From assembly GCA_021413535.1 (NCBI GenBank), contig JAIOQF010000180.1, positions 1-33,311 of the forward strand: a DNA stretch of 33,311 nt. The letters run 5' to 3'. Below are positions 15,132 through 17,411 of the stretch, piece after piece; the stretch's first letter is position 1, and each line of letters opens with the position of its first letter. The notes beneath the pieces were generated by a model. It was not told the origin of the DNA. It did not search any database and worked only from the letters and a program-made list of their open reading frames with translations. The position numbers and the translations under genes were made by a program. This stretch comes from Verrucomicrobiota bacterium. Its GTDB lineage: Bacteria > Verrucomicrobiota > Verrucomicrobiia > Verrucomicrobiales > Verrucomicrobiaceae.

Positions 15132-15169
15132 GGGAAAGCTCAGACATGTCTGAGCACTCCAGATTTACG
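15132..15169. repeat. Second copy of the ACATGT palindromic repeat, overlapping the stop codon of the fusion gene
   Basis: GGGAAAGCTCAGACATGTCTGAGCACTCCAGATTTACG versus GGGAAAGCCCGGACATGTCCGAGCACTTCAAATTTACG at 9367-9404. GCTCAGACATGTCTGAGC (15138-15155) is a perfect 18-bp palindrome. Confidence 0.8.
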
Positions 15170-17411
15170 GCAGTGGAAAACGCTTGTTGATCTCCACAAC
15201 CTCGGCGCGGATTTGCGCCAGCACTTGCGGCTGGTTGCGACCTTCTAAGGCTTGATGGATCCAGGTGGCGATTTGCTTCATCTCCGCTTCTTTCATGCCG
15301 CGCGTGGTGACGGCGGGCGTGCCGACGCGGATGCCTCCACCGAGCGTGATCTTTTCCGTATCGAAGGGAATGCCGTTTTTGTTCACGGTGATGCCGGCGT
15401 GGTCGAGTGTTTCGCTGGCGATCTTGCCGTTGAGTCCGCGCGGGCGGAGATCGACGAGCATGAGATGGTTGTCGGTGCCGCCGCTGACGATGCGATAGCC
15501 GAGCGCAGTGAGCGCGGCGGCGAGCGCCTGCGCGTTCTTCACAATCTGCTGCTGGTATTCTTTGAACCCGGGCTGGAGCGCCTCGTGGAAGCAGACGGCC
15601 TTCGCAGCGATGACGTGCATGAGCGGTCCACCCTGGGTGCCGGGGAAGACCATGCTGTTGATCTTTTTGGAGAGGTCTTCGTTGTTCGTGAGGATAATGC
15701 CGCCGCGCGGGCCGCGGAGACTTTTATGCGTGGTGCTGGTGACAAAATCCGCGTGCGCCAGCGGTGAAGGATGCACGCCGCCGGCGACAAGGCCAGCGAT
15801 GTGCGCCATGTCGACGAACAAGTAGGCGCCGACGCTTTTGGCGATCTCGCCCATGCGCGCGAAGTCAATGATGCGCGGATAGGCGCTGGCACCAGCGGTG
15901 ATCATCTTTGGTTTCACTTCTAGCGCGACTTTTGCCAGCGCATCGTAGTCAATGCGCTCGTCTTTCTCGCTGACACCGTAGTGGGTGACTTCATAAAACT
16001 TGCCGCTGAAATTCGCCGGATGCCCGTGGGTTAAATGCCCGCCATGAGCGAGGTTCATGGTCAGGATGCGGTCGCCGTAGTTGAGCACAGAAAAATATAC
16101 TGCTGCGTTTGCCTGGGAGCCGGAGTGCGGCTGAACGTTGGCAAACTTTGCACCAAAGAGCTGGCAGACGCGGTCGATGGCAAGCTGCTCGGCTTTGTCC
16201 ACTTCTTCGCAGCCGCCATACCAGCGGCGGCCGGGATAGCCTTCGGCGTATTTATTGGTCAGGCAGGAGCCCTGCGCGGCCATCACGGCACGGCTGGTGA
16301 AATTCTCGCTGGCGATGAGCTCGATGTTGTTCTGCTGACGCGCTTCTTCGGCGAGAATGACCTCGGCGATGGCGGAATCGCTCCCGCGGACGATGTCGGC
16401 AGCGACGGTGTGCATGGCGTTCATCTTGCCCACGCGCCGGTCGTGCCGGCCTCCGGCAAACGGCGTGGTGAGGAAGGCGTCTGCGATTTTCTGCGCGTCG
16501 GCCAAGGAGGTCTTGGTTCCGCTGAGGCAGAGCACATTGGCGTGGTTGTGTTCGCGAGATTGCGCGGCTTCCGCAGCGTCCGTTACCAGCGCAGCCTGGA
16601 TGCCGGCGTGGCGGTTCGCCGCCATGCAAACCCCGATGCCGCTGGTGCAGACGAGAATGCCAGCTTGCGCGTCGCCCGATAAAACTGTCTCCGCCACAGC
16701 ATCGGCATAGTCAGGATAGTCCACGGATTCCTTGGAAGTGGTGCCGAGATCTTTTACTTCATAGCCCTTCTGCTTGAGATAGCCTGCGAGCGCATTCTTC
16801 AATTCATAACCGCCGTGATCGGCGGCGAGGGCGATGCGTTTGATGGCAATGGAGGCGGCGGGTTCGGCGATGCTGGCGGCGGAGTGCATGGGCTGGTTGG
16901 GGGAAGGGGATTTATCGAAAGTCTGATCAATGTAGGCGAGCACGCTGGGCAAGAGTTTGCGCAACGCATCCCTCACTTCTTCATACGCGCGTCGACCCGC
17001 GCCGAAGGGATCGCTTACATCTCGACCGCGCAATGAATCGTCGGGCGTGAATTCGCTGATGAGATACACCTTGTCCGCCGCCTCAGGGAAAGCGGATTCG
17101 ATGGCCTCCAGATGCGAGCGCGAAAGACCGACCACATGAGTGGCCTCGTCGAGTAATTCCTTGCTGAGCTGCTGGCTGCGAAAAGCCGAGGGATTGACGC
17201 CAAGTTCTTTGAGGATGTCCGCCGTGTGGTGGCTGGCGGCGTCGCCGGGATAGGCTCCCACGCCCGCGGACGACACTTCATAATCATCGCGACCCCGCAC
17301 GAGTTCGCGGAACAACGCCTCCGCCATCGGGCTGCGGCAGGTGTTGCCGGTGCAGACAAAAAGAACTCGTTTCAAGGCAGGGGTCGTTTGGTTTTTGCGG
17401 AGGGTCAACAT
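15165..17411 (-). CDS. Trifunctional fusion: YwlE-like low-molecular-weight protein phosphatase + ribose-5-phosphate isomerase B + serine hydroxymethyltransferase
   Basis: Single open frame. Domain 1 (about 17372-16926): [19 protein letters not shown]...DVSDPFG. Domain 2 (about 16844-16422): [13 protein letters not shown]...[22 protein letters not shown]...[11 protein letters not shown]. Domain 3 (about 16412-15168): [13 protein letters not shown]...[11 protein letters not shown]...[13 protein letters not shown]...[13 protein letters not shown]...[14 protein letters not shown]. Confidence 0.92.

Follow-up and report, generated by a model that had tools for sequence, protein, structure and literature searches.

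The closest known counterpart of the gene reported here was described by Hou et al. (2008, PMC2474590) in Methylacidiphilum infernorum V4: Minf_1669, a protein that they regarded as unusual and that combines an SHMT, a low molecular weight phosphatase and an RpiB domain. They suggested in one sentence, with no accompanying experiment, that it connects the serine pathway with the pentose phosphate pathway, and no later study of Minf_1669 was found in the literature searched. The gene that we consider lies in a 33,311-nucleotide stretch of contig JAIOQF010000180.1 from a Verrucomicrobiota bacterium (assembly GCA_021413535.1), called the window in what follows. A first-pass annotation of the window had left it open whether this architecture had been characterized; since Hou et al. 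already describe it, the window protein is a further example of a known architecture.

Domain Organization of the Fusion

ORF analysis places the fusion of LMWPc, RpiB and SHMT in a single open frame on the minus strand of the window (15165-17411), comprising 748 codons from an ATG at 17411, within an encompassing ORF (15165-17513, minus strand) whose stop-to-GTG frame amounts to 782 aa. The assignment is supported by Pfam and NCBIfam, and the same frame is present in loci L084 and L085-L090. All three domains are nearly full length in a Pfam scan of the 782-aa frame. The LMWPc (YwlE-like phosphatase) domain (16950-17366, minus strand; PF01451, 1.8e-31, 109.7 bits vs a cut-off of 23.2) has the P-loop CTGNTCRSP and matches NCBIfam phosphatase models below cut-off only. 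It is followed by an Ala/Pro/Ser-rich linker (16842-16910, minus strand) that is predicted to be disordered, with pLDDT values <50 across residues 168-186. RpiB (16422-16835, minus strand; PF02502, 1.9e-51; TIGR01120, 149.4 bits vs an NCBIfam cut-off of 138.65) carries its catalytic Cys in the motif CTSGIG, and SHMT, with its PLP lysine motif (15171-16376, minus strand; PF00464, 4.1e-167, 556 bits; PRK00011, 638 bits vs a cut-off of 335), comes after it with no flexible linker. In an alignment of 40 fused proteins the LMWPc residues C20 and R26 (CX5R P-loop) and D134 and P135 (DP motif, D134 being the acid), the RpiB residues C255, H288, R322 and R326, and K563 of SHMT are invariant. The open frame and full-length domains thus bear out the first-pass reading of one ORF encoding three complete enzymes, and the catalytic motifs that it quoted are present. 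The fusion provides the sole SHMT and the sole RpiB match in the window genome (3.05 Mb, 86% complete), which has two further LMWPc paralogues, ~31% identical.

The AlphaFold model of the fusion has three mostly confident domains with a disordered tether following LMWPc, and RpiB passes into SHMT without a break, helix 322-332 being adjacent to helix 337-344. No solved structure spanning more than the SHMT part is present among the 60 best PDB matches listed.

Outside the fusion lies a divergent gene for a PabB/TrpE-type chorismate-binding enzyme (17497-18648, plus strand; PF00425, 8.8e-91), whose best NCBIfam match, PabB-clade2, scores 350.7 bits, below the cut-off of 408.55. PabB would supply a folate precursor used by SHMT. 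As a conserved partner of the fusion PabB was rejected, adjoining the fusion in the same genus only among the loci compared. The window also encodes a 1356-aa protein (9491-13561) that combines a Ser/Thr kinase domain with leucine-rich repeats at its C terminus, and a 942-aa planctomycete-type PSCyt1/PSCyt2/PSD1 protein (5452-8280).

Distribution and History of the Cluster

An uninterrupted LMWPc-RpiB frame occurs in 27 of the 387 genomes of the window's order, among the matches listed, and in at least ~127 of the 286 genomes sampled from the class, where the fusion, whose phyletic spread the first-pass annotation had proposed to map, is therefore widespread; it extends beyond the class to other members of the phylum (L184, L189). 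Across much of the phylum RpiB-SHMT is present without LMWPc in frame, often with LMWPc just upstream, and in Lentisphaeria LMWPc adjoins RpiB-SHMT. In split relatives the LMWPc gene either overlaps RpiB-SHMT at an ATGA or lies in frame with it, separated by a single stop codon. LMWPc-SHMT fusions that lack the intervening RpiB occur in four families of the class (f14, f19, f23 and f29; L245-L248, two of them scanned with Pfam); at least some of the genomes concerned have RpiB-like genes at other sites. LMWPc lies beside SHMT as a separate gene in L249, L250, L253 and L254, and three separate adjacent genes are seen in L251 and L252. In Firmicutes, Priestia megaterium included, the same genes are side by side, with some LMWPc-RpiB fusions, and in Planctomycetes Sua5-LMWPc fusions adjoin rpiB (L035:5065-6456, L055:5281-6468).

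That relatives have LMWPc next to RpiB-SHMT, LMWPc fused to SHMT, or three separate adjacent genes points to one old cluster that both fuses and splits. The suggestion that the fusion matches an old conserved gene order is well founded, given the Firmicutes neighbors and the split, partly fused and fused states in the class. A tree of RpiB-SHMT needs at minimum 4 state changes vs 27 with shuffled labels, and for an SHMT tree with six states the corresponding figures are 9 and 40, both trees having a weak root and loci chosen partly by best match, which favors fused genes. For the window's own family ancestral retention and re-fusion after a split both fit the RpiB-SHMT tree at little extra cost. 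A contig labeled Akkermansia muciniphila (L007) has a three-domain fusion that clusters with those of other orders, other Akkermansia-like genomes being split; the label is probably wrong. Within one bacterial class, then, one conserved cluster is seen at every stage, as separate genes, partial fusions and a three-enzyme fusion.

A Probable Start Codon in the Linker

The first-pass annotation had counted the lack of a Shine-Dalgarno sequence against internal starts and had treated the ATGs at 16889 and 16415/16424 as equivalent; on both points we come to a different view. The RpiB-SHMT start was located in 47 split loci, a Shine-Dalgarno-like motif being present in 3 of these (two Lentisphaeria, one doubtful), so that its absence carries no weight against internal initiation here. 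Linker ATGs resemble the true starts of split genes: the 60 nt around them have a mean folding energy of -3.3 kcal/mol vs -16.8 kcal/mol at 308 other internal ATGs, and the mean around 43 true starts is -4.5 kcal/mol. The in-frame ATG of the window linker (16887-16889, minus strand) has a 60-nt MFE of -2.8 kcal/mol and only 2 G in the 30 nt upstream. This unstructured, G-poor setting matches that of the true starts and is absent from the strongly structured ATGs at 16424 and 16415 (-24.8 and -18.8 kcal/mol). A second product of 574 aa is therefore favored, and a separately translated SHMT disfavored.

Exactly one Met is retained in 24 of the 27 fused linkers of the order (15 of 16 genera) despite wide variation in linker length and sequence. 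At a Met rate of 2% a linker Met would be expected in 6.7 of the 16 genera (P ~1e-5, a statistic weakened by shared ancestry), and in other orders linker Met is near background level. Linker ATGs also sit in weaker structure than most other codons of their own linkers (p = 3.5e-4, again weakened by shared ancestry), and the three g2 fusions without a linker Met have structured linkers, with means of about -18 to -21 kcal/mol. Judged by these features of the nucleotide sequence, a second start at 16889 probably gives an RpiB-SHMT isoform without phosphatase. For Verrucomicrobiales as a whole the balance tips slightly toward a two-product gene, in which a conserved, Shine-Dalgarno-independent linker start would yield RpiB-SHMT beside the full three-enzyme protein. 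If so, only a fraction of the RpiB-SHMT would carry the phosphatase. The linker start offers a cheap and direct test of whether fused genes keep an old start codon working. For split genes that share a frame (L091-L095 and others) UGA readthrough was considered and rejected; the sequence past the stop does not resemble the linker of the fusions and contains an ATG of its own, making separate starts the simpler explanation.

The Phosphatase Domain

In YwlE and PtpB a Thr in the P-loop selects phosphoarginine (PMC8001253), and the window P-loop has Thr at this position, X5. McsB-type kinases are found in 138 of 141 genomes of the class, and genome G001, from the same genus, has an McsA-McsB pair, with McsB above one equivalog cut-off and McsA below its own. 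A PF00217 search gave no McsB match in the window genome, which is 86% complete and in which the control also matched nowhere. From its sequence the LMWPc domain is most likely a YwlE-type protein-arginine phosphatase beside McsA/McsB. Outside the window's family the specificity position of fused LMWPc domains is mostly occupied by Ile/Val and not Thr, and the arginine phosphatase role cannot be generalized to them. Separate LMWPc of the order carry Thr in 31 of 36 cases vs 4 of 61 for fused ones outside the order, which mostly have Ile/Val; a link between fusion and phosphatase specificity is possible, albeit confounded by ancestry.

Function and Alternative Explanations

We consider it rather likely that the window gene is a verrucomicrobial housekeeping fusion, in which three neighboring genes of the old ywlE-rpiB-glyA cluster have merged, with a probable additional isoform from 16889. 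Translation from 17411 would give an ~80 kDa protein in which a disordered tether connects LMWPc to a contiguous RpiB-SHMT unit; LMWPc would act as an arginine phosphatase with McsA/McsB, and initiation at 16889 would add RpiB-SHMT lacking the phosphatase. RpiB produces ribose 5-phosphate and SHMT glycine and 5,10-methylene-THF, all nucleotide precursors, and purine synthesis is fed by ribose 5-phosphate, glycine and one-carbon units. We infer that the three enzymes are active and that their linkage is of benefit; because RpiB and SHMT have no intermediate in common, that benefit is likely co-expression and a fixed ratio rather than channeling, and catalytic coupling of the fused enzymes is unsupported. 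RpiA was found in 0 of 29 relatives, in searches where 8 of 14 controls gave matches, so that most or all ribose-5-phosphate isomerase activity is likely to come from the RpiB domain. Carrying what may be both the only such isomerase and the only SHMT of its host, the fusion is probably essential.

An assembly or sequencing error that masks stop codons at the linkers might have been suspected, the window genome being a draft of 387 contigs. The uninterrupted frame is found, however, at 94% identity in G001 and at 73-76% identity in genera g2, g3 and g6, including the single-contig genomes G003 and G012, which excludes such an error for practical purposes; its probability is negligible and we reject it. 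A neutral origin is unlikely yet deserves real weight. Adjacent, near-overlapping genes would become joined through loss of a stop or a frameshift and the extended product would be tolerated, the linkage itself being useless, much as the ATGA overlaps and single in-frame stops of relatives, the alternation of fused and split states and the LMWPc-SHMT fusions lead one to expect. Against this, frames with all three domains or with RpiB-SHMT have been kept across much of the phylum, far longer than is usual for a neutral accident, and the tree requires only about 4 changes.

The proposal that the phosphatase is a regulatory switch, dephosphorylating SHMT, RpiB or their partners and so steering one-carbon and pentose flux, draws on the association of LMWPc with SHMT, as a neighbor or in a fusion, that persists even when RpiB sits elsewhere, and on a disordered tether that would permit reach in cis. 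We nevertheless hold it to be improbable: there is no phosphosite evidence, the specificity residue varies, and the presence of Sua5 in the planctomycete cluster indicates general operon conservation. The metabolic coupling and phosphatase switch put forward in the first-pass annotation thus found no support. Still less probable, in our estimate, is that the domains act solely as separate proteins, released by internal initiation or proteolysis, with the fusion existing merely on paper; the start-like context at 16889 is in its favor, but the candidate SHMT starts are strongly structured, RpiB and SHMT are joined without a linker in the AlphaFold model and many fusions of other orders have no linker Met. 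The preferred reading remains that of a housekeeping three-enzyme fusion.

Comparison with Known Systems

In the literature searched no description was found of the linker start or of the complete spectrum of fusion states. Minf_1669, from the same phylum, has the same three domains in one protein, as far as the published account of it goes, with the domain order taken from the window only; the window protein comes from a different lineage, and its linker contains an ATG in a start-like context. The ywlE-rpiB(-ywlG)-glyA cluster of Firmicutes shares its gene order with the window, but its genes are separate apart from a few LMWPc-RpiB fusions. The planctomycete Sua5-LMWPc fusion beside rpiB belongs to the same cluster and is likewise fused, its partner being Sua5, with SHMT not found nearby. 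In the LMWPc-SHMT proteins of other Verrucomicrobiia (L245-L248) the phosphatase is fused to SHMT, as in the window, with the middle RpiB missing.
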